Shown here in pieces: positions 23,823 through 54,263 of a DNA stretch of 64,000 bases. The position numbers and the translations under genes were made by a program. This stretch comes from Haloquadratum walsbyi J07HQW2. GTDB taxonomy: Archaea > Halobacteriota > Halobacteria > Halobacteriales > Haloferacaceae. The stretch spans positions 311,660-375,659 of the forward strand of contig NZ_KE356561.1 of NCBI RefSeq assembly GCF_000415985.1, in the 5' to 3' direction. The notes under the pieces were generated by a model. That model saw nothing but the letters and a program-made list of their open reading frames with translations. It was not told the origin of the DNA and searched no databases. The first letter of the stretch is position 1. Each line of letters starts with the position of its first letter.

Positions 23823-24512
23823 ATGGAAAGTTGGAAATCAATTGATGAAAAGTCTATTCAGTTTCTCAAAGCAGTTAGAGGATATGATGGATCTGCAACA
23901 ATTACACAGATTAGAAACTTTACTGGACTCTCAAGAGCTAACGCTAATTATCGGTTCAAGAAATTGAAAAATGAAGGACTCATAAATATTAAGCGAGACG
24001 GAAAAACAAAGGGGGAGAGAAAGCCTGCAAAAAGAGCCACATTGACTGGAAAGGCTCGTCGGGAAATCGAAAAGGGATTATTGGATACTGATTTCCCTAA
24101 CACAATAGTTTCAGATATATCCAATTTTGCATCCGTTAATGATGTTGATCAGCTCAGTGAAAAAGTCGATAAGATCGAGACAAAGATTAATACTACGTTA
24201 CATTCAACTGGAAATGTATCAAGTCATTCTCATCCAGAGGAATTCAATACTGATATTGAGCCGGCATTATCTTCAATCCGTTCTCGGTTGGATGAACTTG
24301 AGACCAATCAAGTAGATGCAGATAATGAAGAAATTATTGAACAGGTGGATCATCTTAATCAAGAGTTCGCTGAACTGGAGGATTTTTTGAGCGACTGGAT
24401 GAGTTATACTGAGAGTTATTTAGTGACAATCCGTGATGTAATTGAAACTCAATTGGACGTTGACTTTTCAGAGTCATTGAATGGACAGTTACAACAGCTA
24501 GAACAAGAGTGA
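23823..24512 (+). CDS. Winged-helix DNA-binding protein with long C-terminal coiled coil
   Basis: A 229-aa protein. Residues ~10-85 form a winged helix-turn-helix: VRGYDGSATITQIRNFTGLS (helix-turn-helix), NANYRFKKLKNEGLI (recognition helix region) and a basic wing (KRDGKTKGERKPAKRATLTG). Residues ~105-225 are acidic heptad-rich helices (VDQLSEKVDKIETKI, LSSIRSRLDELETNQ, VDHLNQEFAELEDFLSDW), predicted to dimerise or oligomerise. The protein probably binds the phased repeats just upstream and may also read the palindromes of this element, acting as a regulator or as a partition/replication-type protein. No catalytic domain is seen. It is the first gene of the AT-rich block and is transcribed in the same direction as the secretion genes. 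Confidence 0.75.
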   Translation: MESWKSIDEKSIQFLKAVRGYDGSATITQIRNFTGLSRANANYRFKKLKNEGLINIKRDGKTKGERKPAKRATLTGKARREIEKGLLDTDFPNTIVSDISNFASVNDVDQLSEKVDKIETKINTTLHSTGNVSSHSHPEEFNTDIEPALSSIRSRLDELETNQVDADNEEIIEQVDHLNQEFAELEDFLSDWMSYTESYLVTIRDVIETQLDVDFSESLNGQLQQLEQE

Positions 24513-24674
24513 TATGATCGACATCCTCCCACGTCTTGTATTCTATAACTGATTATTGCAGTGAGTATATTACTATTGCTGTGAATTTAGTGATCCTTTT
24601 CAGAGCTTATTTTTCCGATCAATAATTGTTAATTGTAAGAGTATACGTTAATCAGTATTTTCAATTTTAGTCTA

Positions 24675-24791
24675 TTACAATGACTCAGTCAGGTAGTCAC
24701 GTCGATAGACACAGATATAACAGAAATATCTTGTATATACGTTAATCTCACCAACAGTTTCCATGGGATTATTGCAGTCTGGGCAGTTCAT
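24675..24791 (-). CDS. Micro zinc-finger protein (38 aa)
   Basis: From ATG 24791 the product is MNCPDCNNPMETVGEINVYT..., with CPDC near the N-terminus and CYIC later: a two-knuckle zinc ribbon. The start is preceded by AGGTGAT, a good Shine-Dalgarno motif placed at the very end of the upstream 51-aa gene, so the two are translationally coupled. Small CPxC zinc-finger proteins are a known and abundant haloarchaeal class with regulatory phenotypes. The gene is too short for routine annotation. Confidence 0.65.
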   Translation of the reverse strand: MNCPDCNNPMETVGEINVYTRYFCYICVYRRDYLTESL

Positions 24792-24792
24792 A

Positions 24793-24948
24793 TCACCTAA
24801 CTGCATTAATATGCGAATCAATGTCTAGAGATTGTATGCTGTTACATCCAGGGCAGGTATAATTGATTGTTGTCTCAGCTACTAAATCGACATCAACATT
24901 TGAAATATCTATACCACAGTTTGGGCAGGTCAGTTCATTTGTGTTCAT
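24793..24948 (-). CDS. Micro zinc-finger protein (51 aa) with two CPxC motifs
   Basis: From ATG 24948: MNTNELTCPNCGIDISNVDV ... YTCPGCNSIQSLDI, ending TGA 24793-24795. CPNCG and CPGCN are placed about 20 residues apart, the standard small zinc ribbon of haloarchaeal micro-proteins. It overlaps the ribosome-binding site of the 38-aa gene, forming a two-gene operon opposite in direction to the pilus genes. Role unknown; regulation of the neighbouring machinery is a guess. Confidence 0.7.
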   Translation of the reverse strand: MNTNELTCPNCGIDISNVDVDLVAETTINYTCPGCNSIQSLDIDSHINAVR

Positions 24949-25108
24949 TACAGATGAGTAATATATGTTTTAGTGTATAGACTTTTTGTAGTGCGACGAT
25001 GCTAAAGAATGTGCTGTACATGTATCAGACACATTTGAGTATCTTATTTTAGATGAGCAAGAACATCAAAGTTAGAGTATATTCAGGAAAGCCAAATCAC
25101 TTATATCG

Positions 25109-25114
25109 TATATA
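25109..25114 (+). promoter_or_regulatory. TATA box supporting the start at 25137
   Basis: TATATA lies 23-28 bases before ATG 25137, the spacing of a leaderless transcript. It would lie inside the coding frame if the upstream ATG (25053) were used, so it favours 25137. Confidence 0.5.
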
Positions 25115-25136
25115 TGTTTATTTTGATACATGTATT

Positions 25137-27719
25137 ATGATTAGTATATTAATTATCGTTAATTCACGTATTAATCGAGAGAGAGCTGTCTCCGTTGTCA
25201 TTGGCGTTATGTTAATGCTGTCAGTTTTGTTTTTAGCAGCGGCACAGTATCAAGTGGTGATTGTTCCACAGCAAGAGCAAACGACAGAGGTAGACCATCA
25301 TCAAACAGTAATTACACAGATTGACACAATTCGGACGAATATTATTGGAACAGCTGAGACAGGATCGCAATCTGCACAACAAATAAAGATGGGAGCAATG
25401 TATGAGCAGGAAACAATTTTTGGTGTCGTTCCAAAAGTACATCCATTAAACCCCAGTGGTAAGTTACAGACTGTTGAACTTGCGTCGGATTCACGAATCA
25501 AGTTTTCAAACGCAGAAGGAACTGGACCATCGACAAGAAGTTACTGGACCGGTGTCAACTCATGTCCGACTCATTGCTATGAGACAAACGGACTTGAGTA
25601 TACAATCGATTATAATGAATTTAGCGATAATTCCGAGTTAGTATATGAGAATTCATTGTTCTACGAACGGTATCTAACAAAAGACGAAGATCCTGAATAC
25701 TTTGTTCAATCTGGACAGTCACTAATCAATGGACGGTCGATTAACTTGATAGCGCTTACTGGAGGGTTATCTGTAAATCAAATTCGATCAACATCTGTTG
25801 AGACAATTCCCGTGAGTGCTCCAAGTCAAACTGTGTTGTTGACGGATGATTCAGCAGACGAAGATCCACTTATTCTTGAAATTCCAACGCAGTTACCTGA
25901 CCGTGTGTGGCGAGATGTACTTACTGATGAGATGTCTTCGAGGGGTGGATATATCTCACAATTACGTGTTCAAAATAACGTTCTTCGATTGACGTTGAGA
26001 CCAGATGAGACGTATTCAGTTAAGATGGCACGAGTTCATCTGAGTTCGCAGACACAGCAGGAATCTGTGCAAGCGACAAACGCACGGTATATCTCCTGGG
26101 CAGGAAATGAACGGAAGATCATTCCTGACGGGACACAAACACAAATTGAGGCACAAGTTCGAGATAAATTTAATAATCCAGTTTCAGGAATTCCCACGCG
26201 TGCGTACGTAAATGATTCATCAGGTATCTGTGTTGGTGATTTTGTTCCAGAACAGGTTGAAACCGATCCAACAGATAACTGTTCAAGTAACCAACAACCA
26301 GGAAAAGCAGCAAGTGGAAACGATGGTGCAGTGACGTATTACTATTCAGCTGATGTTGAGGATAATACTGAGATAATTATTGATATTGATATTCTTCGTC
26401 CATCGGTCATCGTAAATCCCTCAATTTCTCCACCAGACGGAGCTACATCTGTTGACCTTGCTTCATTGAGTCAGCGCTCAATACCCACTGTGCACTCATC
26501 GGTAATTGATACAACCAAATTTCCTGACGGGGAGAACCATTTTCGAATTCTTTCAGTAGATCCTTCTCAATCAAGTGCAACTATTGGATCAACAATCACT
26601 GTTGATACACTTGTTGATAACATCGGACGTAATACTATCAGCAAAAACATCACTCTCACAAGTGACAAAAACGCAATTATTACGCCTGAATCCTATCGTA
26701 TTAGATTATCACCTGGATCTCACGCAAGAATTCGATATGAATTAACAGTTACTCAACCTGGCAAACATACACTCGAACTCAATGGCAAGGAAGTCGCTAC
26801 GATAGAAGGGAAACGTCTTGGAAATCTATTATTTGCTTCGTACATCAATAATCGATTTGAGGAAGAAGAAATTGTAGAGGATCCAGATGTATTCAAAGAT
26901 GGATCAGGAAATGTGCTTGAACGAAAAGAGAATAAGAATGTTCCTCCAATTGTTGATGAGTCGACCCCGTTCACTGGTGTCATTGGTGATATTCAGTCAT
27001 TTGAAAACCTTGGAACAGATAACCCAATGCGTGTTTCAAGCGCTAGACCACTCAATTCAGGCATCCTATTTTCAAGTATCGAACCTAACACAATGTATAC
27101 GCTCGGAATTAAGTATCGACTAATATCATCAGAGCCAGTTCAGCTACAGTTATATAAAAATGGAGATACCCATGTTGGTTCCTTAGATGGAAGTCAGTCG
27201 TCATACTATCTCTCTGGAGAGAATGAAGAACAACTATTTCAACTCAGCTCAAAGGAGATCAAATATATTCAAACACAACAACAAGCAGGATGGGCTTTAA
27301 GATCTAATACACAAACTGATATTTCAGTCGATAAGCTACAAATTCGAAGTTCTCAAGATTCAATATTGGCTGATCCAATTCAACCAGTTATTACAGAGTT
27401 CTCAATTCTAGAAGATCAAGTTCAATCCTTTGAGCGTTTTACTGTTGAATTAGAGGTTCGAAACCCCTCTACTGAATTTAAAACCCCGTTGCTAGAGTTT
27501 TCTCAGAAGTCTACATTTAATCCAGCAAGCAAAGTATCTGATAGACGAACAATCTTAGTGAATCCTCAAACGACACTCACAGGAAACTCTAATAAGATTA
27601 TTGAGCGCATGTATTCAGAATATCCCGGTCAGTACACGTATTCAATCCGAGGCACAGAAGAATATCGTGTTGACCCTGACTGTAATTGTGAAGCAACGAT
27701 TACAGTAAAACATTCTTGA
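25137..27719 (+). CDS. Large surface protein with type IV pilin-like N-terminus
   Basis: About 860 aa. The N-terminus (basic INRERAV followed by SVVIGVMLMLSVLFLAAAQY) resembles archaeal class III pilin signals, in which the peptidase cuts before a hydrophobic assembly helix. The rest is extracellular and beta-rich with Ig-like segments: HVSLSSQTQ-type strands, GIPTRAYVNDSSG and a CARDB-like DNIGRNTISKNITLTSDKNA. It has few Cys, mostly in pairs (SCPTHC, CNCE). An in-frame ATG at 25053 exists but the TATA box at 25109 favours 25137. I infer a very large pilin-like or tip/adhesin subunit of the nearby pilus system. It is followed by two ordinary small pilins. Confidence 0.7.
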   Translation: MISILIIVNSRINRERAVSVVIGVMLMLSVLFLAAAQYQVVIVPQQEQTTEVDHHQTVITQIDTIRTNIIGTAETGSQSAQQIKMGAMYEQETIFGVVPKVHPLNPSGKLQTVELASDSRIKFSNAEGTGPSTRSYWTGVNSCPTHCYETNGLEYTIDYNEFSDNSELVYENSLFYERYLTKDEDPEYFVQSGQSLINGRSINLIALTGGLSVNQIRSTSVETIPVSAPSQTVLLTDDSADEDPLILEIPTQLPDRVWRDVLTDEMSSRGGYISQLRVQNNVLRLTLRPDETYSVKMARVHLSSQTQQESVQATNARYISWAGNERKIIPDGTQTQIEAQVRDKFNNPVSGIPTRAYVNDSSGICVGDFVPEQVETDPTDNCSSNQQPGKAASGNDGAVTYYYSADVEDNTEIIIDIDILRPSVIVNPSISPPDGATSVDLASLSQRSIPTVHSSVIDTTKFPDGENHFRILSVDPSQSSATIGSTITVDTLVDNIGRNTISKNITLTSDKNAIITPESYRIRLSPGSHARIRYELTVTQPGKHTLELNGKEVATIEGKRLGNLLFASYINNRFEEEEIVEDPDVFKDGSGNVLERKENKNVPPIVDESTPFTGVIGDIQSFENLGTDNPMRVSSARPLNSGILFSSIEPNTMYTLGIKYRLISSEPVQLQLYKNGDTHVGSLDGSQSSYYLSGENEEQLFQLSSKEIKYIQTQQQAGWALRSNTQTDISVDKLQIRSSQDSILADPIQPVITEFSILEDQVQSFERFTVELEVRNPSTEFKTPLLEFSQKSTFNPASKVSDRRTILVNPQTTLTGNSNKIIERMYSEYPGQYTYSIRGTEEYRVDPDCNCEATITVKHS

Positions 27720-27748
27720 ATACCAGTGATACGCAATTAACAGAATAG

Positions 27749-27754
27749 TATATA
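27749..27754 (+). promoter_or_regulatory. TATA box for the pilin gene at 27778
   Basis: TATATA lies 24-29 bases before the ATG at 27778, predicting a leaderless mRNA. Confidence 0.5.
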
Positions 27755-27777
27755 CATTCTTGACAAAATTTAGATAT

Positions 27778-28164
27778 ATGATTGATAATAGTAACGCAAT
27801 TGACGAAACTGCAGCAAGCCCAATCCTTGCTATTGTTCTTGTCTTAGCAATAACCGTCATATTAACTGGAGGTATTGGAACATTTGTTCTTGATCTTGGA
27901 GAGTCACAACTTGAAGGAGCTACAAGTAACGCTGATCTTGGAGTTCGAGTATCTGAATCTAATGGCGAAGTTACTATACTTGTAAAGTCTGGGACAGCTG
28001 ATGAATTACAGGTACTAGTCGATGGACAAGTTAGTGAGGATAGTTTAATTGATGCGAAACCGGGAGACATAATTCAATTTACAAGCCCCTCATCTGGCAC
28101 GAGATTAACTCTATTAGAAATCGATGATAGCAAAATAACTGTTGCACTAGACACAGAAATGTGA
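27778..28164 (+). CDS. Type IV pilin-like protein
   Basis: A 128-aa protein. The N-terminus AIDETAASPILAIVLVLAIT followed by VILTGGIGTFVLDLG is a canonical haloarchaeal pilin: short polar leader, A-S-P in place of V-S-P, then the hydrophobic H-domain. The ~80-residue head is beta-rich and Cys-free. FVLDLG after the H-domain also occurs in the pilin at 35660, so the two are related. The start was chosen from the TATA spacing; an ATG-less extension to 27760 has no support. Likely a major or minor pilus subunit processed by a prepilin peptidase encoded elsewhere. Confidence 0.8.
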   Translation: MIDNSNAIDETAASPILAIVLVLAITVILTGGIGTFVLDLGESQLEGATSNADLGVRVSESNGEVTILVKSGTADELQVLVDGQVSEDSLIDAKPGDIIQFTSPSSGTRLTLLEIDDSKITVALDTEM

Positions 28165-28280
28165 ATGGTCTTTAATTCTAGTAACGCATAGATACGTATA
28201 TCTCACATATTTCTATTTGGATTCAATATTAAGAGTATGTTCAGCAATGATTTGCACATTGTTATGTCAGTAAATATACT

Positions 28281-28286
28281 TTTATA
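28281..28286 (+). promoter_or_regulatory. TATA box for the pilin gene at 28308
   Basis: TTTATA lies 22-27 bases before the ATG at 28308. Confidence 0.45.
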
Positions 28287-28307
28287 CTCTTACAGATAGT
28301 TCAATAC

Positions 28308-28712
28308 ATGAATTGTTCAACATCAACTACAGGAGTATCAGAGGTTGTAAGCACAATTTTACTGATTGCTATTACTGTGCTCGCTGCATCAATTCTCGGG
28401 AGCTTTGTAATTCAGATCACAGGTATTCTCGAGGAACCGGTACAAGGACAATTAGATATTAACTCCGAATATAATCCATCTACGGGATTGTATGATACTC
28501 GAATTACGTACACAAATACAGTTAATGCAGAGAGTATGCTTGTTCGAGCAACGTATGATGGAGAATATGATGGACAGATTAACTCACCAAGATTAACACA
28601 GATTGGTGAAACAATTGAGGTGGCCTACCCTGAGGGAACATATCTCGTTGTGATTGCTGAGAGTAAGGATACTCGGAAAGTAGCTTATCAAGCTCACGTT
28701 GAAGATTTATGA
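28308..28712 (+). CDS. Type IV pilin-like protein
   Basis: A 134-aa protein. The leader MNCSTSTTGVSEVVSTILLI followed by AITVLAASILGSFVIQITG has the V-S-E/P-V cut-site region plus H-domain of haloarchaeal pilins. The head (INSEYNPSTGLYDTRITYTN) is beta-rich. It is a separate promoter unit from the preceding pilin. It lies directly before the secretion ATPase gene, so it is probably assembled by that ATPase and the platform protein at 33511. Confidence 0.8.
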   Translation: MNCSTSTTGVSEVVSTILLIAITVLAASILGSFVIQITGILEEPVQGQLDINSEYNPSTGLYDTRITYTNTVNAESMLVRATYDGEYDGQINSPRLTQIGETIEVAYPEGTYLVVIAESKDTRKVAYQAHVEDL

Positions 28713-28753
28713 GTTTGATATTCTATTCATGCACAGTGTAAGTGCTGAAAAAG

Positions 28754-28784
28754 TTTAAATAATCTAATAGTAACAATATTGTTA
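28754..28784 (+). promoter_or_regulatory. Promoter with palindromic operator before the secretion ATPase gene
   Basis: A TATA-like TTTAAATAA (28754-28762) lies ~31 bases before ATG 28793. Between them is a perfect 14-bp palindrome, TAACAATATTGTTA (28771-28784), overlapping the expected transcription start. It shares the half-site TAACAA/TTGTTA with the inverted 19-bp motifs at 21720 and 21897. A bound protein would block transcription of the ATPase gene. Confidence 0.55.
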
Positions 28785-28792
28785 ACTACTCT

Positions 28793-31700
28793 ATGGGTTC
28801 AAATATTATTAATGATATTTATCGAATATCGGATCATACATTAGTGGTAACACATCTTAATGAAGAAATTCTTATTCGAGCATATGTGAACTCAAATAAT
28901 AAAGAGTGTTTACTGTGGGCATCGGAGTCTGACATCGTTGGGCACAAGGGAAAATTATTACAAAACCAGTCGAAGTTGCAAACTGATCATAATGGACGCT
29001 ATCATTCAATTCGTCTAAAATCGGAGATTGTCGATCAGATAAACGATGATTTTTCACAACTTCACTCAGTAGATAGTGAAGTACAACAATCAGTCTCATC
29101 TGATTCATTGATTAAGCAATTAATTTCGGCTGAAATTGACACCTCAAATCTTGAAGAGGCTTCGTTTGAGGTTATTGAAACTACAGCGAGCAATACAACA
29201 CAAAGTCAACAAAATAATGTAACAAACACATCTACAGAATCGAATGTAGCCCATGTACCTAGCTTTGAGGCTGATACATCATGTTCTAGAGAGGGCGTGA
29301 GCGAAGAAGTATCACTTTCGCCTACCTCACGATCAGAGGAAATTCGTGTTGAGCATTCAGTATCTTCACAGGATACTTCAGTAAAACAGGGAGAAACAGA
29401 GTCCTCAAAAAACCAATTAGCGGATAGTCAGACATCTCAAGAGAGCAATACAGAAGCTGATGAGGATGTCGATGTCGATACAAATTTGAATGATGATCCA
29501 CGGGAAGGCACTGACAGCTTAGTTGAGGCTGAGGATGAAGATGAACCCGATCTTAATAAGGACGAAGAGGAGGCGTCTGAATTGGATATACAAAATTTAC
29601 ATTCAAATAAAGATATTTCAAACACAGATGAAAATATACAGGAAGTTGAGCTAGACGAATCACAAAGAAGTACTGAATCAATAGATACTGCTCAATCTAT
29701 ATCAACTTCTGAAAGTATTGATGACGTGAATGCACGAAGAGGTGTTGATGACATTGAGCAGATACATACACTCGTTGAGTTTGTTTCATCACAAGCTTTT
29801 GCAACACATGTAAACTTGAATCTTCCACTGTTTTCACGCTTGTTTATGTCTAACTACAAGTCATTAGACGAGCTTGAAAGTCAGCGATTCGTGCTTCCGA
29901 CCCAAATAACACAGCAGAAATGGCTATCAGATAGAACGTATAATCAGTCACAGTCGAATGAGTATATTGATTTACAGTCAATAATTTCTTTTGAGACAAT
30001 CAAGAGTCAATTATTATCACCTGAAGCTGGAGATAACACACATAACGAGAAAGTAGAACAGATAGATTATATAATTAAAAATCTTTTAGAGACGGTTCTA
30101 TCTAGATATGTAGAAAATATTAACAAAGATAACCCAGTCAATAAATCAATGAGTAATAATTCTAATCATAATAACGATACCACAGCTGATACAGAAGGTG
30201 AATCGTCAATAAAAAGCAAAGAGATAGATGATGAGCCTTTTTTAGAGAATGAGAGTCAGGATTCTATTAAATTTGATGATAATAACCCTGAAGAAATAGA
30301 AGGATCAATTTCAAAAACTAATAATGACAACTCCTCAGAATTAACTGATGGAATTATTGACCGTATTAAATCCTCGTTAGTTGTGACTGAGTTTGATGAA
30401 GGATCAGATCATGCTGAAGACGTCAATGATGATGCGCAGAGAACACCTGATTCACTCAATGACACAGACGATCAAGACATCGTAGATGGAGAGTCGATTG
30501 AGTCCGATCAGATCGACACTGATAACGAAGAAGTTGAGTTTGAAGATAGTGATCCAGGATCAGAATTAGAACCAGAAGATGTGCAAATAGACACGAAAAC
30601 GGACACAGATACAGATATTGACACTGAGATCGAAATACAATCTGAGGCGTTTTCTGCATCATCTAGTGCATATATAGAAGATAACTCAACGCAGAGAGAT
30701 AACACTGATTTAGAGGATAACATTGGTGATACAAATAATCAAGATGATTTATTTTATCCTCGGAATCCGATGTCGTCAAATCAATCAGAGTCGGGACTGT
30801 TAGCGACGGTTTTTGGAATTTTTGAGCAGGACGTAACAGATGAGACTACATCCCACCCAACGGAGGATTCACACACTATTTTGCCAGAGTGGTTTACACA
30901 AAATCTTGGACGCAATACGGAGTATACACCTCCTGCAGAGTTAACACCAGCATATCCGTTTGAAAAGACGGGAATATTGGTATATAGGTATGTATCAGAG
31001 CTACGAGACAACGCAGCAGCAGGAAATATAACTGCTGAACGGAGACTCGAGGATGCTTCCCGCCGGTTTGATCGATTAAAACAAAAACGACCGACAATTC
31101 GTGGATTGAAGTTCTCGATGTTTATTGTTTCGACCCTCTTTTTATATGCGGCGATGATTCTGATATCAAAAAAACTGTTAGATCCTGGTTCACTCTCTTA
31201 TCTATTCATCATCACAGAGAATCGAATTGCAGATTTACTTCTTGTTGATATTGCACTCATTGGATCGTTTGTGATGGCGTCATTTATATTCAAATTTATT
31301 GGACAGCGAACAGCTCCACAGATTGGGTATTATGCAGGAGAAGTCGCTCGGTGGGCGATTGTGTTTGTTCAATTAATTCCGTTAATTGCGATGTCAGTGT
31401 TTCTTTATCGACCAGTTTCTGAGCGAGGGACTGCTAATCAGATTCTCAACACATATTACCAGAATGTCAATGCCTTAGAACAACAAGTACCAGAAATTGT
31501 AGTTCAGCTCGGAACGTACTATTATTATGAGATTTCACCATTAGGTTATTCACCACTTGAACTTACATCCTGGTTTCTCGGTACAGGCATAATTTTTGCT
31601 CTTCCATTTGCTGCACAATATTGGCAGGCAAAGACGTATGCAACATCACTACAGTCGAAAGAGCTTCCAAAGTCAAGAGAAAGTCAAGATTCAACAGATG

Positions 31701-33517
31701 CTGAGGTTGACGCTGACGATACAGAGGACTTCGATATTACAGACGTTGCTTCCTGGAACGAATCAAAAGTTGGAACTCCAACTATCGAATCAGGAACGGG
31801 ATATGAGACTGCAGAGCAACTGTTATCTATACCTGATCAAATGAGATTAGAGCCATACGAGGATTACGTAGAAGTGCTTAGATACTGGATCAATGAACCA
31901 TATACTTTCATCTCAATTCTCCGAGACGACGAACAGTCGGATTATCGGTATTTCGTCATGGAGCCACAATTAAACAGTGAAGAAGAGCACTTGTTGTTGG
32001 AAGAGTTCGAAGAACGCCTGGAGACTCGGTTACTGTTTAATACTGTTGAGCCATCTGAAAATGAGACTGAAGTTGAGCTGAAGATTGATTTGCTTCATGA
32101 GGAAGTGATCAGTCTAGCTGAGGAGTATAATGTCTCAGTGACTGAGCAGACCTTTCATAAATTACTGTATTATCTCGAACGGAATTTCGTTCACTATGGA
32201 CCAATTCAGCCGCTAATGGAAGATGTGAATATTGAAGATATCTCATGTGATGGTGATTCTGTTCCAGTGTTCGTATTCCATCAGCACTACAACGATATGA
32301 TGTCAAACATCTTGTTTGAATCAAAAGAACTGCGTCAGTTTATTATTCAATTAGCTCAGCGTTCTAGCGAGCATATTAGTTCTGCTCGACCAATTGTTGA
32401 TGCCTCACTACCAACAGGTGATCGGATTAATATGACTCTTGGAGACGAGGTAACTACTCGTGGATCAACGTTTACAATTCGTATTTTCCAAAAAACTCCA
32501 TTTACACCAGTTCATTTGATTGAGACAAATACATTCTCTATTGAGCAAATGGCATATATTTGGCAGGCAATTCAGTATGACAAATCACTGATTTTTGCCG
32601 GTGGCACTGCGAGTGGCAAGACAACTTCAATGAACGCAGTAAGTTTGTTCATCCCGCCAAAATCAAAAGTTGTCACAATTGAGGATACCCGCGAGATTTC
32701 ACTGCCGCATATAAATTGGATCCCCGGCGTGACCCGAGAAGGGTTTGGGGGAATCGGTGACATTGACGGAGCAGGTAGTATTAATATGTTTGATCTTGTC
32801 GTGAGTGCGCTTCGACAGCGTCCAGAGTATATGATCGTTGGTGAGATTCGTGACGAAGCTGCAATTTCACTCTTTCAGGCAATGAGTACCGGACATACGA
32901 CATATTCAACAATGCATGCTGATTCTGTAAAGCGAGCGATTAGTCGATTGACAAACCCACCAATCAACGTTCCACAAGATATGATATCAGCACTTGATAT
33001 TGTCTGCATTCAAAATCAAGTTCGTATTCAAGATGCTGAAACAGGCGATATAAAGAATGTTCGTCGGAATGAGACAACCACAGAAATTGTAAGCGTTAAT
33101 CCAGATATCAAAACAACCACTCCATTCATTCGAGATGCACAGCTAGATGAATTCAGATCAAACTTTGATGATTCACAAGTAATTGATCAGATTCGTGAAG
33201 AGCAAGGATGGACTCAAAAGGAACTCTTCGAAGATCTTGAGGCAAGGCAGCAGACACTGGAGTATCTTGTAGATAACGATATTAAGGACGTAGGAGATGT
33301 TACACGGACAATTCAAGCGTATATGCTCAATCCATCACGAGTTACAAAAGATGCAAAAGAGGGGGTCCTCAATCCAGATGATTACAAAGATATCACAGAA
33401 ATCGATCTCACTAAAGTCACCAGTTCACTCAAGCTTGGTGACTCAGTGCTCGAAACCATGGATTCAGCCCGAAGACTACCACAAGATGTTATTGAAGAAA
33501 CAAAACAATCATGGTAA
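28793..33517 (+). CDS. Giant membrane-linked type II/IV secretion (PilB/TadA-type) ATPase
   Basis: A 1574-aa protein. Residues 1-~110 form a small folded domain; ~110-740 are extremely acidic, Ser/Asp/Glu/Asn-rich and disordered. About four hydrophobic spans follow between ~765 and 940 (FSMFIVSTLFLYAAMIL, IGSFVMASFIFKFIG, WAIVFVQLIPLIAMSVFLY, WFLGTGIIFALPFAAQYW). The C-terminal half is the secretion ATPase: Walker A AGGTASGKTTSM (~1266), Asp box VVTIEDTREI, Walker B YMIVGEIRDEA (~1344), His box STGHTTYSTMHAD (~1366). Family members are normally 500-1000 aa and soluble; the membrane spans and long acidic region are exceptional. Partner: the platform protein, whose ATG overlaps this stop. Role: power pilin assembly or retraction. 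Regulated through the palindrome at 28771. Confidence 0.85.
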   Translation: MGSNIINDIYRISDHTLVVTHLNEEILIRAYVNSNNKECLLWASESDIVGHKGKLLQNQSKLQTDHNGRYHSIRLKSEIVDQINDDFSQLHSVDSEVQQSVSSDSLIKQLISAEIDTSNLEEASFEVIETTASNTTQSQQNNVTNTSTESNVAHVPSFEADTSCSREGVSEEVSLSPTSRSEEIRVEHSVSSQDTSVKQGETESSKNQLADSQTSQESNTEADEDVDVDTNLNDDPREGTDSLVEAEDEDEPDLNKDEEEASELDIQNLHSNKDISNTDENIQEVELDESQRSTESIDTAQSISTSESIDDVNARRGVDDIEQIHTLVEFVSSQAFATHVNLNLPLFSRLFMSNYKSLDELESQRFVLPTQITQQKWLSDRTYNQSQSNEYIDLQSIISFETIKSQLLSPEAGDNTHNEKVEQIDYIIKNLLETVLSRYVENINKDNPVNKSMSNNSNHNNDTTADTEGESSIKSKEIDDEPFLENESQDSIKFDDNNPEEIEGSISKTNNDNSSELTDGIIDRIKSSLVVTEFDEGSDHAEDVNDDAQRTPDSLNDTDDQDIVDGESIESDQIDTDNEEVEFEDSDPGSELEPEDVQIDTKTDTDTDIDTEIEIQSEAFSASSSAYIEDNSTQRDNTDLEDNIGDTNNQDDLFYPRNPMSSNQSESGLLATVFGIFEQDVTDETTSHPTEDSHTILPEWFTQNLGRNTEYTPPAELTPAYPFEKTGILVYRYVSELRDNAAAGNITAERRLEDASRRFDRLKQKRPTIRGLKFSMFIVSTLFLYAAMILISKKLLDPGSLSYLFIITENRIADLLLVDIALIGSFVMASFIFKFIGQRTAPQIGYYAGEVARWAIVFVQLIPLIAMSVFLYRPVSERGTANQILNTYYQNVNALEQQVPEIVVQLGTYYYYEISPLGYSPLELTSWFLGTGIIFALPFAAQYWQAKTYATSLQSKELPKSRESQDSTDAEVDADDTEDFDITDVASWNESKVGTPTIESGTGYETAEQLLSIPDQMRLEPYEDYVEVLRYWINEPYTFISILRDDEQSDYRYFVMEPQLNSEEEHLLLEEFEERLETRLLFNTVEPSENETEVELKIDLLHEEVISLAEEYNVSVTEQTFHKLLYYLERNFVHYGPIQPLMEDVNIEDISCDGDSVPVFVFHQHYNDMMSNILFESKELRQFIIQLAQRSSEHISSARPIVDASLPTGDRINMTLGDEVTTRGSTFTIRIFQKTPFTPVHLIETNTFSIEQMAYIWQAIQYDKSLIFAGGTASGKTTSMNAVSLFIPPKSKVVTIEDTREISLPHINWIPGVTREGFGGIGDIDGAGSINMFDLVVSALRQRPEYMIVGEIRDEAAISLFQAMSTGHTTYSTMHADSVKRAISRLTNPPINVPQDMISALDIVCIQNQVRIQDAETGDIKNVRRNETTTEIVSVNPDIKTTTPFIRDAQLDEFRSNFDDSQVIDQIREEQGWTQKELFEDLEARQQTLEYLVDNDIKDVGDVTRTIQAYMLNPSRVTKDAKEGVLNPDDYKDITEIDLTKVTSSLKLGDSVLETMDSARRLPQDVIEETKQSW

Positions 33518-35553: not shown

Positions 35554-35626
35554 TCATAACTTTGATACTAGATTTTAATTAATGTATCTAGATATCACAA
35601 AACGATACACTCGAAACATAAGAAAA

Positions 35627-45098: not shown

Positions 45099-45101
45099 AT
45101 A
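45094..45101 (+). promoter_or_regulatory. TATA-like box before the VirB3/4-like gene
   Basis: TATAAATA lies 29-36 bases before ATG 45130, overlapping the end of the VirB6-like gene. Confidence 0.35.
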
Positions 45102-45129
45102 TCATAACACGATAAAATATACTATATAA

Positions 45130-46215: not shown

Positions 46216-46221
46216 GTAATT

Positions 46222-48436: not shown

Positions 48437-49702
48437 ATGTCTGAGTTTCATCCAATCAAGATTAACGAGCAATTCGCTGAAGCACTTAGTGGAAAGACAA
48501 TATATACACCCAGTAAATCACAGCTCATCAAGATTAATCCACCTAAAAAGAATGAAGGAATAGACGCAAGTATTTCATTATATCGAGCGTTGTACGATTC
48601 ACAAAATAATAGAATACAGAGTTATAGTCCAGAGAGTGAATCAGAATCAAAATCAGTAATTGGAACAGAAATTTGGTACGATGAGGAAGAACTGAAGTTT
48701 ATGTTTTATTCTCCAAATAGTGATTTATCTCGGTTACAGAGGAGGCATATTGATGGATTCTTTCCATTATGTCGGATTGAACGTCAGAGGAGTAGATTTC
48801 CCTCAGTTACTGCTGGAGATTATATCACAGGTGGAAACGTATGGTTACAAAATCACTATTTTGAACCGATTCGACAGAAAAAGCACGGTATTAATACATG
48901 GAATGATCCGTATCAAATGATTTTCAATGGAATTGATACTCGTGATTCAACACGAACTTTGGTACAGGTATTATTGAAGCCAGCAATCAAGAATTGGGCT
49001 CGAGAGGCTGATACTGAGATACAAGATTACGCACAGAAATTTCTTGAACCAATCACAGAGTCTAAGTATGGTGGTCTTATCCAGAATACATCCGAACGAA
49101 CACCAGAGGAAAAGAAATACGCAAAGACGATCATGAAACAGGTCGATCAGCAGGCATTTCATGTCAACATCCGATTTGTAGTGATTGCTGATTCACCGAA
49201 TGATGCAACAACACATGCTGTTGAAATTGACACTTTATTTCAAAACGGGTATGTCGAGATGGGAGGTCAAACGTTAGTAACTGATCCTGCCTCGACTCTA
49301 GATGAAACAAAAGAACTTGTTCGAAGGATAGCTAAAAGAGAAAGTCTGAATATGACGCCTCCCTCGGGGTTCTTAGACGGACTTAATCATATCAGAGACA
49401 CTGATCCAACAAGATACATGATCATGAGTATTAATGAACTAGCTGGAATTACGCATCTCCCTACTGCAGACGAGGTCTCAAGTAATAGTATCTCATGGAC
49501 GGATGTATCGATTACAGGAGTTCTTCCGCCAACAGCAAAGTCTCATGATCCTGTATCTGTCGAAGAACGTCAGCGACAGCTGAAAACGTGGGCGAGGGAC
49601 GGAGACAACATAAAAGAAAAGTTTGGCATCACTGAAGAGGACTCAATCGTTGAAAATCCACTTGGAGGTGACAATAATAGTCATACTGGCAAAGATAACT
49701 GA
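48437..49702 (+). CDS. Companion (N-terminal module) of the coupling ATPase
   Basis: A 421-aa protein. Mixed alpha/beta, with no membrane helix or P-loop. Strand-helix patterns such as VIGTEIWYDEEELKFMFYSP, FHVNIRFVVIADSPNDATTH and RYMIMSINELAGITHLPTAD, plus the phrase 'LAGITHLPT', recall the N-terminal module of HerA-/VirD4-like ATPases and of VirB4, where L-x-x-x-x-H-L-P-T occurs just before the ATPase domain. The gene ends 2 bases before the ATPase gene. I therefore read the pair as a split coupling protein: this part forms the N-terminal module, the next the motor. Confidence is moderate. Confidence 0.55.
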   Translation: MSEFHPIKINEQFAEALSGKTIYTPSKSQLIKINPPKKNEGIDASISLYRALYDSQNNRIQSYSPESESESKSVIGTEIWYDEEELKFMFYSPNSDLSRLQRRHIDGFFPLCRIERQRSRFPSVTAGDYITGGNVWLQNHYFEPIRQKKHGINTWNDPYQMIFNGIDTRDSTRTLVQVLLKPAIKNWAREADTEIQDYAQKFLEPITESKYGGLIQNTSERTPEEKKYAKTIMKQVDQQAFHVNIRFVVIADSPNDATTHAVEIDTLFQNGYVEMGGQTLVTDPASTLDETKELVRRIAKRESLNMTPPSGFLDGLNHIRDTDPTRYMIMSINELAGITHLPTADEVSSNSISWTDVSITGVLPPTAKSHDPVSVEERQRQLKTWARDGDNIKEKFGITEEDSIVENPLGGDNNSHTGKDN

Positions 49703-49704
49703 TT

Positions 49705-52700
49705 ATGGGATTAAAAGATATTTTTACTGAAGAAATCGAGGCACAGAGTGATGAAAATTCAGAAACAGAGACGGAGACAGGTGCAGAAACTGAAATAGCT
49801 GATTCAGCTGCTTCAATTGCAAGAAAAGCCGAATTAGAACAAAAGTACTGGCCATATGCATTTACAGCGACTGGACATAATGTCAAAATCGGCGGAAATG
49901 AAGTAATGATGGCTGATGCAACAGACTATCGTGGAAAGCCAGAGTCATATGCCGGTCAGTGGGTACGAGAGATGTTTGAGGCTCATCAGTTTAGAGAAGA
50001 AGAGAACTCTTGGATGGGTTATACTCGTGACAATGTGAAAGGAGTTCAAGAAGCCGGAGTCGAGCATGAGTCACTATTTCGCCATCTTGCCTTTTTCGGG
50101 ATTACTGGATATGGTAAAACAACAGTTATTCAAAATCTCATGGTGCAATGGGCATTGAAAGGACATGGATTTTGCTTTATTGATCCGAAGGAGAATGATA
50201 TCTATACATTACTTGATATGCTCCCTGAAGATCGGCTAGACGATGTTATCTGGGTTGAACCGGGATCACCAGATGACAAGATTGTTGGATTCAATTATTT
50301 TGATACAAATCATGAACATGGAACTGCACAGCATGAAAATGAAGTTACAGAGATAACTGAGGACTTTGTATCGCTTCTCAAAGCCTCGGATCCAACGTGG
50401 GGAGCAACGATGGATGCGGTTGCAAAAGCGATTTCACGTCAGCTGATTCGGTCTGAGGAGACGTTTACAATCGGAGACATGTATCGGATCATCACTGATG
50501 ATGAGCAGCGAGAACAATTCGCTGAAGAGTTTGGTGATGATACTGAATCGATGTTTCTTGATCGGCTCACAGAATTTTATAATGAAAAAGAGTTTGACCC
50601 ATTGATAAAGCGATTTCGGGATTGGCTCGACAATCGGAATACTCGAGAAATTGTCTCTCATCGTAATTCAAAGATTGATATTACCGAAGTTGTTGAGGCA
50701 AATAAAATCCTGTTGGTCAGACTTGCAAATATTCCGTCTGAGGACATTCAATCGCTTATTACAACATCAATTGTTCGTCGTATTTGGTCAACTGTGAAAG
50801 CTCGTCAAAGTATTCCAAAGTCAGAGCGGAAGCCATATTTCGTAATTATGGACGAGTTTAATCAGCTCTCAAAGGGAGCGATGAACATCAAAAACATGCT
50901 CAGTAAAGGGAGGTCATTTCGATTAAGTCTCACAATAGCAACACAGGCTCCAACGCAACTTCCAGATGATATCATGGAAGAGATTCTAACGAACGTTGAT
51001 AACTTGTGTACATTTAATCCTGGGGCGAATCCGGTTGCTGTTTCTCCGCTTGCGAGTCGGTATGATCTTCATCCGTCAGAACTCCAATCGCTCAATAGAT
51101 ACGAACTACTTGCAAAGTTGAATGTCGGGACTAAGTCGACTGAAGGATTACTGATTAATACATTTCCACCATATCCTCCACGAAGAACTCGAGCTGAGTC
51201 AGAGAAAGTTATCGAACGGTCACTTGAAAAATACGGAGTCGAGAAACTCGATGAAGATGCTGAAGATGATGGGTTTGCACTCGATGATGACGCAGAGGGT
51301 GATACAATTAGTGTGACAGACGACATTTCCGTTCCAGTTCATCAGATATTAGAAAGCATCCATACTGCAGGTGTTCGATACGGCACAGAAACGATCAAAC
51401 AGAAAACAGGGTGGGTATCACCTGAGAATATCAGATCTGAACTTGAAAAATACGCGACTGATATTTCAAGTGGTGTGTTATTCGATAATCTCATGGAAAT
51501 GGTCCCACGATCACTCATCAACGAGTTAGAAACCAGTAATTCTCGTTTCTACTACCGATTAACCCCTGAAGGAGAAACACAGACATTTATTCAAGATACT
51601 GGTGCATCGCAGACTGGAGGGAAGAGAGGACATCGTCGGTTACTCTCACGCGGATATGATGCATTCATTAAGCTAGGATATGACGTTCAACTTCCAGCAC
51701 AGGACGGAGAAGAGCAGCCAGATGGAATTGCAAAACCTCAAATAAATCCCGCTGAAGAAGCAAGTTCGATAACTGAAGTAGAGCAATTAACCAATGCACT
51801 TGAGACGAATCATCCTCGGCTCTATGATTTGTTTAAAGATAACCACATCTCAATCGAAGCTGAGTCAACGACAACGACAAAACCAAAGCAAACGATCAAA
51901 AACCTTGCAAAGGCAGTGAACAAGAATAGACACTGTGTATTTCTTGTTAAAGATGGAATAGAAAAAGACGACTTCTATTACTACGCTAAAAGTATCTATA
52001 CGATTCTTGAAGAACCGAAATTTGTTAATAACAAACAACACCGTAATCGACGATTTTATAATAAATCAACAGGCAGTGAACTCACACTCAATAATGGTAG
52101 CAAAGCCCTTCGAAAACGCAGAGAATCAGATACTGGACGAACTGCACAAACAATTTGGAAAGAGGAAGGGCATGACGTCATTCTTGAAGATCCTGATGAT
52201 GGACCTCCACTCGCCGTATTCGATGATATTGATGATCTTAAAGATCCATCACCGTCTAAAGTTCCATTTCATTTTGAGTATATTCAAAACCAATCAGAAT
52301 ACGTTGTTTACGATAATAAAAACAACATAATAGTAACATATGATACAAAAGAGAAACTCAAAAAAGAATATGATGTTATTCCCGGACCAGTAATCCCCAG
52401 TCATGTGTTCTCGAATGGAGAGTATCCATCGCAGGATGAGTGGACGATAGTTGTTATCCCAAGTGATACTATCGACGCTGGACCACAGATATTTAATGGA
52501 TATGAGTCAGATGACAAGACTGAAAATACAGAACCATTGCTTGAAGATCATGACCCGTTTGATCCGATAAAGCATACTGCCTCAAAAGTAGACAGTTCAA
52601 CACAAAAGTTAACGGCTGACGTTGTTGCTGATTCAGAGAAAGTATGCAGTAATCCAAAACCAACGGATTCTGAGTATAATCCTGCCAAAGACAACAGTAA

Positions 52701-53133
52701 TTTTCACACGGGATACAATGAAGATGGGATGGATAATGCATATACTGGTGGAAGTGCCCGTGAAAAAGATAAAAACGGAGACCTCGATTCGTATGAGATT
52801 ACGGAGTCAAAACCAGATGCATCAGGCACTGAACAAAGTAAATCAACTGATATCGATCAAACGCAGCGAGTAAATCTGGAAAATGAATCAGCAGGCTCAA
52901 CAGTAAATGTAGAGGAGACAGCTGAAACTGAGGCTGAGCATATGCCTGAATTTGAATCTGAGTTAGACGTCAATAAGCAGTCGGATGATGTAGACAAGGA
53001 TAATGATGAAAATAGCAATGAGAATACTAAGACTGTTGATCGATTTAAATCAGGACACTACGCAGCACAACGCACTAGCTTACGCTCTAAAAACACACAG
53101 TCAGATGATACTGAATCAGATGACGATCAATAA
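49705..53133 (+). CDS. VirD4/HerA-type coupling ATPase with nuclease-like C-terminal module
   Basis: A 1142-aa protein. Walker A FFGITGYGKTTVIQN (~130-143), Walker B PYFVIMDEFNQLS (~376), then LSLTIATQAPTQLPDDIMEE (sensor motif), as in TraD/VirD4 and HerA. The pocket lacks N-terminal membrane helices, so it may be soluble and recruited by a partner. After it come a winged-helix-like segment (VHQILESIHTAGVRYGTETI, ~545-565) and residues ~645-750 with GHRRLLSRGYDAFIKLGYDV, EQPDG and ISIEAESTTTTKPKQT. This pattern (PD, then E-A-E-x-T-x-x-x-x-K) resembles a PD-(D/E)XK nuclease core. The last ~250 residues are acidic and disordered. Role: deliver DNA to the channel, perhaps also cutting it. The nuclease call is inference. 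Confidence 0.75.
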   Translation: MGLKDIFTEEIEAQSDENSETETETGAETEIADSAASIARKAELEQKYWPYAFTATGHNVKIGGNEVMMADATDYRGKPESYAGQWVREMFEAHQFREEENSWMGYTRDNVKGVQEAGVEHESLFRHLAFFGITGYGKTTVIQNLMVQWALKGHGFCFIDPKENDIYTLLDMLPEDRLDDVIWVEPGSPDDKIVGFNYFDTNHEHGTAQHENEVTEITEDFVSLLKASDPTWGATMDAVAKAISRQLIRSEETFTIGDMYRIITDDEQREQFAEEFGDDTESMFLDRLTEFYNEKEFDPLIKRFRDWLDNRNTREIVSHRNSKIDITEVVEANKILLVRLANIPSEDIQSLITTSIVRRIWSTVKARQSIPKSERKPYFVIMDEFNQLSKGAMNIKNMLSKGRSFRLSLTIATQAPTQLPDDIMEEILTNVDNLCTFNPGANPVAVSPLASRYDLHPSELQSLNRYELLAKLNVGTKSTEGLLINTFPPYPPRRTRAESEKVIERSLEKYGVEKLDEDAEDDGFALDDDAEGDTISVTDDISVPVHQILESIHTAGVRYGTETIKQKTGWVSPENIRSELEKYATDISSGVLFDNLMEMVPRSLINELETSNSRFYYRLTPEGETQTFIQDTGASQTGGKRGHRRLLSRGYDAFIKLGYDVQLPAQDGEEQPDGIAKPQINPAEEASSITEVEQLTNALETNHPRLYDLFKDNHISIEAESTTTTKPKQTIKNLAKAVNKNRHCVFLVKDGIEKDDFYYYAKSIYTILEEPKFVNNKQHRNRRFYNKSTGSELTLNNGSKALRKRRESDTGRTAQTIWKEEGHDVILEDPDDGPPLAVFDDIDDLKDPSPSKVPFHFEYIQNQSEYVVYDNKNNIIVTYDTKEKLKKEYDVIPGPVIPSHVFSNGEYPSQDEWTIVVIPSDTIDAGPQIFNGYESDDKTENTEPLLEDHDPFDPIKHTASKVDSSTQKLTADVVADSEKVCSNPKPTDSEYNPAKDNSNFHTGYNEDGMDNAYTGGSAREKDKNGDLDSYEITESKPDASGTEQSKSTDIDQTQRVNLENESAGSTVNVEETAETEAEHMPEFESELDVNKQSDDVDKDNDENSNENTKTVDRFKSGHYAAQRTSLRSKNTQSDDTESDDDQ

Positions 53134-53190
53134 AAGATAATCTACAGATCGCTTGAGTCATATCGCATTTTTATTAGTATTATCAATAAG

Positions 53191-53202
53191 TTTATATTAT
53201 AA
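53191..53202 (+). promoter_or_regulatory. TATA-rich promoter for the 27-aa gene and its downstream neighbour
   Basis: TTTATATTATAA lies 18-29 bases before ATG 53220. Confidence 0.45.
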
Positions 53203-53219
53203 AAAGCAAATACAGCTGT

Positions 53220-53303
53220 ATGAATAATGATTTGATCAAGCAAGCTGTCGCTCTTGCAATCGTAGTGGCAATGGTTCTAATCCCAATTAGCGCATATATT
53301 TAG
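53220..53303 (+). CDS. 27-aa single-helix membrane microprotein
   Basis: From ATG 53220: MNNDLIKQAVALAIVVAMVL then IPISAYI and TAG 53301-53303. One perfect hydrophobic helix with a polar N-terminus. The promoter is well placed upstream and the next gene starts 6 bases after the stop, so it would be co-transcribed. Too short for gene finders; the coding call rests on composition and promoter position. Confidence 0.45.
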   Translation: MNNDLIKQAVALAIVVAMVLIPISAYI

Positions 53304-53309
53304 ATAATT

Positions 53310-53999
53310 ATGACACTCAAGACATTCACCAATCCTGATTATAGTCAATTATTACCAAATACGTATTCAACAGGTATCGACGGACTAGATCTTGATTATT
53401 TACAAGGAATACCTTACGGTAGTGTGGTTGGAATTATTTCTGACCCACGTATACAGTATGAGTTGTTTAATTATCATCTTGTTCATACTGATCGACCGAC
53501 TGAGTACGTCAGCACGGTAAGACCCAGTCGACTGATTACACAAGATATTGAATCAATGGGAGCTATTACAGATGGAATTCACATCAAGGACGTGTTTGGA
53601 TCCCGAGAGACGGCAAAAAATATTATTCTTAAACATGTTGGTCGAATTGAAGAAGGTCACAATTATATTCTTGATACAGTCGGGTCATATTATTTACTTG
53701 AGGAGAATCCTGATATGTTTCTTCAGACTCTCAGAAACGTGTACACAACAGTTCATGATAAAAACGCTATTGCGTATCTAAATTTCACTAATATTGCACC
53801 GGCAGCGTCGTCAGAGCATATTCAAGAGGCAATTGGAATGTGTGACGGGATATTTAATTTAATACAGGAGGTTAAAAGTCGAAACATTGAAACATTCCTT
53901 GAAATCAAGCGAATGCGAAAGCGGTCGTATCCATCTGAGCGTATTAAAGTTGAAACAAATAATATCCTCACGATTGATACGACACAAAATATTGCATAA
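53310..53999 (+). CDS. RecA/KaiC-like (FlaH/HTR-like) protein with degenerate P-loop
   Basis: A 229-aa protein. The N-terminus YSTGIDGLDLDYLQGIPYGS followed by VVGIISDPRIQYELF is the start of a KaiC/RadA core: T-G-I-x-G-L-D followed by G-x-x-x-G-S-x-x-x-I. The P-loop G-K-T is replaced by S-D-P-R. Later strands (NYILDTVGSYYLL, AIAYLNFTNIAPAAS) follow the RecA fold, with a D in the Walker B position. FlaH and 'HTR-like' proteins of archaea are such relatives, often binding without hydrolysing ATP. Position at the end of the secretion cluster suggests a regulator of the pilus or coupling ATPase. Not proven. Confidence 0.65.
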   Translation: MTLKTFTNPDYSQLLPNTYSTGIDGLDLDYLQGIPYGSVVGIISDPRIQYELFNYHLVHTDRPTEYVSTVRPSRLITQDIESMGAITDGIHIKDVFGSRETAKNIILKHVGRIEEGHNYILDTVGSYYLLEENPDMFLQTLRNVYTTVHDKNAIAYLNFTNIAPAASSEHIQEAIGMCDGIFNLIQEVKSRNIETFLEIKRMRKRSYPSERIKVETNNILTIDTTQNIA

Positions 54000-54001
54000 A
54001 G

Positions 54002-54076
54002 ATGAATCGAATACAAAGCGATAATTCCTCACGAGTTGAATTTAACACAGTGATACGAATGCTGAAAAAACTCTAA
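54002..54076 (+). CDS. Possible 24-aa peptide
   Basis: MNRIQSDNSSRVEFNTVIRM then LKKL, starting 2 bases after the RecA-like gene. Basic and amphipathic; its position in the operon is the only support. Confidence 0.25.
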   Translation: MNRIQSDNSSRVEFNTVIRMLKKL

Positions 54077-54095
54077 ATTACTTGAGCCACGAATA

Positions 54096-54263
54096 ATGAG
54101 TTCAGTTGAAATTATCTCACAAAAAGTTGAAGCGTATCATCTCGTAGTTGAAACGTTGCATAAGTCACGATACTCTGCAGAATGGACACAATACGATGAG
54201 TCAATACAGTCTTATCTTAGAACATATGAGTCCTATTTACAGTCATTGCAAATCATAAACTAA
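54096..54263 (+). CDS. Hypothetical 55-aa helical protein
   Basis: MSSVEIISQKVEAYHLVVET, then SRYSAEWTQYDESIQSYL and ending SLQIIN. Two probable amphipathic helices, Tyr- and Ser-rich. It lies in the same direction 20 bases after the previous small frame and is the last possible gene of the transfer cluster. No family recognised. Confidence 0.45.
   Translation: MSSVEIISQKVEAYHLVVETLHKSRYSAEWTQYDESIQSYLRTYESYLQSLQIIN

Follow-up and report, generated by a model that had tools for sequence, protein, structure and literature searches.

A type IV pilus locus and a type IV secretion core side by side in the genome of Haloquadratum walsbyi J07HQW2

The haloarchaeon Haloquadratum walsbyi J07HQW2 carries a block of genes in which a type IV pilus (T4P) locus is followed, on the same strand, by the core of a type IV secretion system (T4SS). 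We studied this block in a window of 64,000 nucleotides (G000:C1:311660-375659; the host genome is 3.59 Mb in a single contig), and positions below are those of this window unless another contig or locus is named. According to the list of open reading frames (ORFs) of the window, 16 plus-strand genes (P01–P16) occupy positions 23823–53999 and all are open, with no internal stops. The T4P locus comes first and contains three pilins, a pilin-like exoprotein, a PilB/FlaI ATPase of 1574 amino acids (aa), and TadC. The T4SS core follows in the order P08, VirB2-like, P10, VirB6-like, VirB3/4N, VirB4, VirD4-N, and VirD4, and a KaiC-like gene is last. In gene content, order, homology, and intactness, the block consists of two machines that lie side by side. 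A separate motor and a separate pilin candidate in either half point to two machines rather than to one chimera. The explanation we favor, with a probability of about 0.5, is that these two ordinary machines serve one contact-dependent process in which pilus-assisted contact is combined with DNA transfer by the T4SS.

An initial annotation, made from the sequence, had proposed that the block encodes a single hybrid apparatus. The genes that it named are all present, contiguous, on one strand, and without internal stops. Its pilus and VirB/VirD4 assignments held in profile searches (Pfam, NCBIfam, PDB, and homologue profiles), and DNA transfer is still the likely function to judge from the families. 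It had the block run from 23823 to 54263; the start stands, and the last gene stops at 53999. A single chimeric apparatus as an established fact was rejected, given the motor and pilin candidate in each half and the occurrence of each half alone elsewhere.

Spacing and base composition of the block

Intergenic gaps are –7 to 143 bp in P02–P07 and 6–44 bp in P08–P13, and the 396 bp before P08 are the widest gap within P02–P16. The G+C content per block gene is 37–42%, as compared with 48–49% in 20-kb stretches outside the window and 47% in an interior stretch of the genome. G+C at third codon positions (GC3) is alike in the two halves, with values of 0.304 for the pilus half (with P16) and 0.310 for the secretion half. 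Long ORFs have mean GC3 values of 0.48–0.58 in four flanking stretches and 0.38 in the interior stretch. Because GC3 is equal in both halves and unlike that of the flanks, the two halves have probably shared a background.

The pilus half

The genes of the pilus half are as follows.

P02, 25053–27719, plus strand: pilin-like exoprotein of 888 aa; 860 aa if read from an internal ATG
P03, 27760–28164, plus strand: type IV pilin, probably starting at ATG 27778; Pilin_N 32.1 bits (cut-off 25.2)
P04, 28308–28712, plus strand: type IV pilin; Pilin_N 35.6 bits (cut-off 25.2)
P05, 28793–33517, plus strand: PilB/FlaI-type assembly ATPase, 1574 aa; T2SSE 120 bits (cut-off 24.9)
P06, 33511–35553, plus strand: TadC/PilC platform protein, 680 aa, 7-bp overlap with PilB; T2SSF 118 bits (cut-off 25.2)
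P07, 35582–36025, plus strand: type IV pilin, probably starting at ATG 35660; Pilin_N 50.9 bits (cut-off 25.2)
P16, 53310–53999, plus strand: KaiC-like protein (DUF7125), 229 aa; DUF7125 47.5 bits (cut-off 29.1)

The ATPase, the platform protein, and pilins are all present, so that by family matches the pilus half is identified as an archaeal T4P locus. The three pilin leaders of the initial annotation are confirmed, in that P03, P04, and P07 pass Pilin_N; its positions 27778 and 35660 are internal ATGs of the ORFs from 27760 and 35582. Its exoproteins of 860, 1025, and 713 aa all exist as well, the first being the internal-ATG length of the 888-aa ORF from 25053. This protein, P02, scores 23.5 bits with Pilin_N, just under the cut-off of 25.2, and has a CARDB-like stretch (0.011, under the Pfam cut-off); its homologues adjoin TadC in 7 of 11 fetched pilus loci. 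Within the order, 284 of the 293 genomes searched have TadC-like genes (E ≤ 1e-10), and T4P are common. No prepilin peptidase family was found among the 16 block proteins in a Pfam scan of the block only, with the rest of the genome not searched.

The ATPase part of P05 spans approximately residues 1031–1509 and matches PDB entry 2oap at 4e-115 and also solved FlaI structures. Its match to the NCBIfam FlaI model is at 7.4e-110, yet under the cut-off of that equivalog model. The size of P05 is not odd in itself because long PilB frames (1,243–1,796 aa) also occur in the same genus. Its N-terminal region of approximately 1000 residues (28793–31800) is rich in acidic residues and has three hydrophobic segments at 774–872.

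P05 is 49–51% identical to PilB of four genomes, which we take as Halorutilus salinus (G031), the metagenome-assembled genomes (MAGs) Ods02 (G048) and Ods01 (G060), and a fourth, G033. The first three belong to family f9 and, with G033, have the top-scoring relatives of P06 (38–39% identity). A gene similar to P16 directly follows TadC in H. salinus, Ods02, and G033; no match at E 0.01 was found in the fetched Ods01 stretch, which has PilB and TadC. As a side observation, four of the 17 genomes of the genus (G001, G010, G012, and G016) have neither a PilB match at 1e-30 nor DUF7125, and the other 13 have both. This joint absence lends weak support to a link between the two because three of the four genomes are 68–89% complete and the four may be one lineage.

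The secretion half

The genes of the secretion half are as follows.

P08, 36422–39499, plus strand: exoprotein, 1025 aa; N-terminus with cysteine, one hydrophobic segment (85–103)
P09, 39543–39947, plus strand: VirB2-like candidate for a small pilin; a signal-type segment that ends in AQ is followed by Cys, two hydrophobic segments, and a second Cys
P10, 39982–42123, plus strand: T4SS-associated exoprotein, 713 aa, one hydrophobic segment at each end
P11, 42168–45098, plus strand: VirB6/TrbL-like polytopic membrane protein, 976 aa
P12, 45130–46215, plus strand: VirB3-like membrane segment and VirB4 N-terminal part, 361 aa
P13, 46222–48228, plus strand: VirB4 ATPase, 668 aa; PDB VirB4-like 4ag5 at 9e-13
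P14, 48437–49702, plus strand: apparent N-terminal part of VirD4 as a separate gene, 421 aa
P15, 49705–53133, plus strand: VirD4/TraG-type coupling ATPase, 1142 aa; TrwB_AAD_bind 30.7 bits (cut-off 20.5)

In the order as a whole, 245 of the 392 genomes searched gave VirB4 homologues at E ≤ 1e-20, many of which are plasmid-borne, and this genome has one VirB4 match. For comparison we used the best 80 of 177 confirmed VirB4 loci with flanks of up to 10 kb, searched with tblastn at 1e-3. P12 matched in 79 of these, P10 in 46 (at the same place as in the window), P15 in 41, and P11 in 14. The matches around VirB4 are in the order of the window, except for one distant P15 match (L173). Profiles built from homologues, with the window excluded, were also run against the 196 ORFs of the window. 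They retrieved P13 at 5e-207, P12 at 6e-46, P11 at 1e-16, and P09 (18 homologues) at 3.4e-6, with the next ORF after P09 at 0.024. On their own, P09, P11, and P12 had no family match at E 0.01 or better in Pfam or NCBIfam, and no usable result came from profile searches of the PDB with VirB6, VirB3/4N, and VirB2.

The best NCBIfam models for P13 are VirB4 ATPases (3e-56 and 1.6e-46, both under the curated cut-offs of those models). In Pfam, AAA_10 misses its cut-off by 0.2 bits and TrwB_AAD_bind just passes with 21.0 bits (cut-off 20.5). P12 and P13 are one fused protein in Halorutilus, Ods01, Ods02, and G018. The VirB3 likeness of P12 is by anatomy, and none of 10 members had a Pfam match.

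In 72 of the 80 loci, an anatomy search showed a small ORF with at least two hydrophobic segments that immediately precedes a P10-sized ORF, and most of these 72 share the AQ, Cys, Cys pattern of P09. Among 19 aligned members of the P09 family, three match TrbC/VirB2 and two match T4SS_pilin, all weakly (best 2e-4); P09 itself matches neither. These data place P09 in a family of small haloarchaeal proteins with candidate VirB2 likeness.

P11 is predicted to be VirB6-like from the homologue profile and from Pfam TrbL_3, which is matched by 15 of 16 aligned members of the family, P11 being the exception. As a query against whole genomes, TrbL_3 had no match anywhere, controls included, and this search is uninformative. 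The structural searches proposed in the initial annotation gave little: Foldseek found no match for the P09 model (mean predicted local distance difference test score, pLDDT, of 66.6), and for the P11 model (mean pLDDT 61.2) chains of the R388 T4SS stalk complex ranked first at a non-significant E of 0.34. Stalk-complex chains (VirB5/VirB6 entries) are three of the first five structural-alignment rows for P11, and from their length we take the matched chains to be VirB6. The alignment to the stalk chain has a Z of 6.3 over 226 residues with a root-mean-square deviation of 7.6, and a Z of approximately 6 is common for helical models, so this fold match is weak.

VirD4 looks to be split in two, with P14 as its detached N-terminal part and P15 as the remainder. 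P14 matches residues 21–353 of a 1428-aa ORF of G027 (L066) with 21% identity at 2.5e-11 (blastp), a match that phmmer did not report at 1e-3, and P15 matches residues 391–1310 of the same ORF. A P14 homologue also precedes VirD4 in G034 C2. P15 has a TraD-type match in NCBIfam (1.2e-7, under cut-off), is 35% and 31% identical to ORFs of G036 and G027, and had no match in a PDB sequence search. P08 has a CarboxypepD_reg-like stretch (8e-5, under the Pfam cut-off) and weak local matches in 3 of 98 other genomes.

By identity, the VirB4s nearest to that of the window (44–46%) are those of Halorutilus and the Ods MAGs. In a first tree of the 60 best of 112 hits, with divergent VirB4s left out, the window VirB4 grouped with Halorutilus and Haloarcula-type sequences, and in a first VirD4 tree the window VirD4 grouped with G036, G027, and G034 C2. 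A mosaic T4SS, with VirB4 and VirD4 of different lineages, was considered and rejected: the window VirB4 is unplaceable, with long branches, once divergent VirB4s are added.

Linkage of the two halves in other genomes

The initial annotation had named a synteny search beforehand as a test that could refute its proposal. This search found the linkage in none of the other haloarchaeal loci, neither in the 80 VirB4 loci, nor in 24 wider VirB4 loci, nor in 11 pilus loci. In the 80 loci there was no match to P01–P09, P14, or P16. Because PilB and TadC lie 11–17 kb upstream of VirB4 in the window, flanks of 10 kb could miss an identical layout, so it is the 24 wider loci that carry the weight. These comprise 21 genomic and three plasmid loci, partly overlap the 80, and include two (G009 C4 and the Halobellus limi plasmid) that are apparently one record. 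In 22 of them at least 18 kb upstream was available and nearly all was read, and the other two have approximately 5 and 7.5 kb. None of the 24 matched a pilus-half protein or P16 at 1e-3. In the opposite direction, P08–P15 had no match at 1e-2 in 11 similar pilus loci (11 of the 13 TadC places that scored best apart from that of the window).

For 40 of the 80 VirB4 loci we also looked at the TadC places of their genomes, 38 in all. Judged by eye among the matches listed, and with small contigs that could not be mapped, the nearest pair on one contig is in Halorutilus, approximately 128 kb apart. No transfer gene was annotated in the inspected stretches of four plasmid-borne T4P loci, no relative was confirmed on viral contigs in single-sequence scans with TadC and VirB4, and no VirB11-type ATPase was seen beside related VirB4 loci with PilB tblastn in the sets of 80 and 24. 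The searches turned up no close relative of the block. A search of titles and abstracts, with subscription papers and preprints outside its coverage, found no published description of a haloarchaeal block that combines T4P with VirB4/VirD4.

Comparison with known systems

The T4SS module of haloarchaeal plasmids shares the core genes of the window in the same order. Three plasmids that we opened have, between the P10-type gene and VirB6, a gene for approximately 230–310 aa (lipoprotein-like by eye in several) that is absent from the window. By contrast, the window has a split VirD4, a T4P locus before the module, and a KaiC-like gene after it. The pilus loci of H. salinus, Ods02, and G033 have in common with the window PilB (49–51% identity), TadC (37–38%), and the KaiC-like gene. 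In these loci the three genes are consecutive, whereas in the window eight T4SS-side genes separate KaiC from the pilus genes. Because the KaiC-like gene lies beyond VirD4 and not behind TadC, we suggest that a pilus locus received an insertion of T4SS genes. An old insertion of this kind, or the assembly of both sets in one AT-rich element, would fit the data, and the fit is not proof. In the available text of a paper on archaeal T4P, KaiC ATPases are named as potential regulators, and the terms VirB4, VirB6, conjugation, and plasmid were not found in it (PMC4858521).

The initial annotation knew of no parallel to this gene set, a claim that does not hold for archaea as a whole. As described in the portions available, integrative and conjugative elements (ICEs) of thaumarchaea have VirB4, VirD4, VirB6, and VirB3 with TadC, FlaI, and pilins, and a relaxase was not found (PMC6563490; PMC5797428). 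They additionally have PilT, a prepilin peptidase, TFIIB, ParB, replication genes, and, where described, att sites. These ICEs belong to another phylum, their gene order is not conserved, and they are likened to the window by description and not by sequence. In Sulfolobales, Ups T4P, which function in aggregation, act together with the Ced T4SS according to the accessible parts of two papers (PMC9905601; PMC11868833). Ced as described there is a VirB2/VirB4/VirB6-like DNA transporter partnered by T4P, as in the window, but it has CedB/CedD instead of VirB4, import is stated for most components, and VirD4 is not named as a part. The window differs from Ups/Ced in its open VirD4 and in having its genes in one block, and it departs from the gene combination of Ced/Ted systems (VirB2, VirB4, and VirB6 without VirD4) in that VirD4 is present. 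Because of the thaumarchaeal ICE and Ups/Ced precedents, a combination of T4P and T4SS is of a known kind in archaea. What is new, as far as our searches reached, is the haloarchaeal, VirD4-bearing, pilus-first arrangement.

Chromosomal islands with VirB4 and VirD4 are also described in haloarchaea, namely a 53-kb low-GC island with XerC/D in Haloferax volcanii (PMC2841640) and fusexin-bearing elements (PMC9259645). In the available text T4P genes are unmentioned for either, and both were compared with the window by description and not by sequence. We also observed VirB clusters in H. salinus (L159:5614-11842) and Ods02 (L158:5457-11881), each with a VirB2-like gene, a P10-sized ORF, VirB6, and a fused VirB3–VirB4 among housekeeping-type neighbors (by eye). 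A short contig of Ods01 (L157:751-3813) holds the end of VirB6 and VirB3/4. No VirD4 was found with two VirD4 queries in any of the four genomes of the Halorutilus/Ods family, which are 64–92% complete. Such a cluster resembles an import-type T4SS of the Ced/Ted kind, here in haloarchaea.

Surroundings of the block

One further gene is counted with the block by position only, and 540 bp separate it from P02.

P01, 23823–24512, plus strand: winged helix-turn-helix and coiled-coil protein, 229 aa, possible regulator; Pfam HTH_24 25.7 bits (cut-off 21.9)

The initial annotation had described everything around the block as decayed. This is broadly so (a split TnpB and VirD4 fragments) but overstated, as ORFs of 758 and 499 aa to the left of the block are open. 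The 758-aa ORF (3162–5438) carries at its N-terminus a PLD nuclease domain (RE_NgoFVII, 2.2e-5); its remainder is helicase/ATPase-like by eye with no Pfam match at 0.001. Just to the right of the block (54913–55994), a TnpB/OrfB gene is split over two frames, with OrfB_IS605 and then a TNB domain. Approximately 25 kb to the left (L034:17142-18479) is a gene for an Orc1/Cdc6-type initiator, possibly the relic of a plasmid replicon. Plasmid-type VirD4 pieces occur at G000:C1 25633–27874, 39701–41280, 291949–294034 (L034), and 381604–382810 (L035), broken up into separate short frames, some of which contain stops, and two of these sites are within 20 kb on either side of the window. The four fragmentary sites are likely traces of other conjugative elements. 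No integrase was found with Pfam among the 16 block proteins, and the scan of the flanks covered only some of their ORFs; no tRNA gene was found in the window, and no direct repeats of at least 20 bp bound the block within 18000–60000.

Weighing of the explanations

We infer that the two halves are coupled because they are linked, share their composition, and have an analogue in Ups/Ced. The T4P, extended by PilB and TadC, would hold cells together. The VirB2-like pilin, VirB6, and VirB3/4 would form an envelope channel powered by VirB4, and VirD4 (P14 with P15) would feed DNA into it. Because VirD4 is present to feed DNA, export is the likelier direction. Pilus and T4SS would then jointly serve DNA transfer, as Ups and Ced do, but with their genes physically joined. 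The presence of VirD4, unlike in Ced, and the fact that the block is open throughout while the other VirD4 sites of the chromosome are fragmentary, support this idea.

Several observations weigh against it. Among the haloarchaea examined, the T4P–T4SS linkage occurs once, with nothing comparable in the 24 wider VirB4 loci or the 11 pilus loci, and haloarchaeal T4SS modules evidently manage without a linked T4P. Gaps of 396, 208, and 176 bp precede P08, P14, and P16, respectively, which allows for separate transcripts. A common origin is not proved by low GC3, because the other pilus locus of this genome is mixed in GC3 and also has ORFs at 0.26–0.35. A TadC tree groups the window with the other TadC of the genome and three plasmid pilus loci (support 0.70), and this position apart from the KaiC-bearing relatives weakens the argument for an insertion; the tree was a quick one of 20 rows, some partial, and conflicts with the ranking by score and identity. 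With Pfam, no relaxase, primase, or integrase family was found among the 16 block proteins, and no replication gene either. Archaeal elements without relaxases are reported in the available text of PMC6563490.

Alternatively, the T4SS core of an integrated conjugative plasmid may have come to lie by chance beside a T4P locus, in an island of mobile remnants where the machines work separately. This is a tentative explanation that we take seriously at roughly one chance in a few. It accords with the occurrence of each half alone in the other loci examined, the 396 bp between the halves, a TadC that may be nearer to the other pilus locus of the genome, and an island with a split TnpB, an Orc1/Cdc6 gene further left, and VirD4 pieces on both sides. 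Against it are the single strand, the open state of all genes, the equal GC3, and the pilus-type KaiC-like gene past the T4SS. At the other extreme, the T4SS could be integral to the pilus locus, with the T4P drawing a partner close, PilB replacing a VirB11-type ATPase, and the KaiC-like protein regulating both, and this we consider unlikely. If it were so, the block would be, as far as our searches reached, the first conjugation machine guided by a pilus that is known from haloarchaea, and the first case in this group in which a pilus like Ups is physically joined to an exporter with VirD4.

Other functions for the same genes are also improbable. A domesticated, Ced/Ted-like import system, in which DNA for repair enters through the VirB part and the pilus serves aggregation, is doubtful. 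The closest VirB4s (Halorutilus and the Ods MAGs) are indeed in clusters with no adjoining VirD4, with none found elsewhere by two queries in the four genomes of that family (64–92% complete), and the block is chromosomal with no integrase or att repeat found. In the window, by contrast, VirD4, the coupling ATPase of an exporter, is present and open, and long branches in the VirB4 tree leave the place of the window unsettled. T4SS cores elsewhere are able to secrete proteins, and the large exoproteins could be taken to indicate a protein-secretion or contact-killing device built of the same parts. We regard this as very improbable, as effector and immunity families are not among the 16 proteins (Pfam) and the relatives are often plasmid-borne, as expected of conjugation.

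Significance

The way in which haloarchaeal cells come into contact for DNA transfer is, to our knowledge, not settled. The three plasmid records that we opened label many genes of the haloarchaeal T4SS as hypothetical, and the comparison made here yields a parts list for this T4SS, which is widespread in haloarchaea. An adhesive T4P and a VirD4-type exporter, if they act together from one locus, would be a physically linked counterpart of the division of labor between Ups and Ced, and what T4P contribute to conjugation in archaea would become testable in a group with good genetics.

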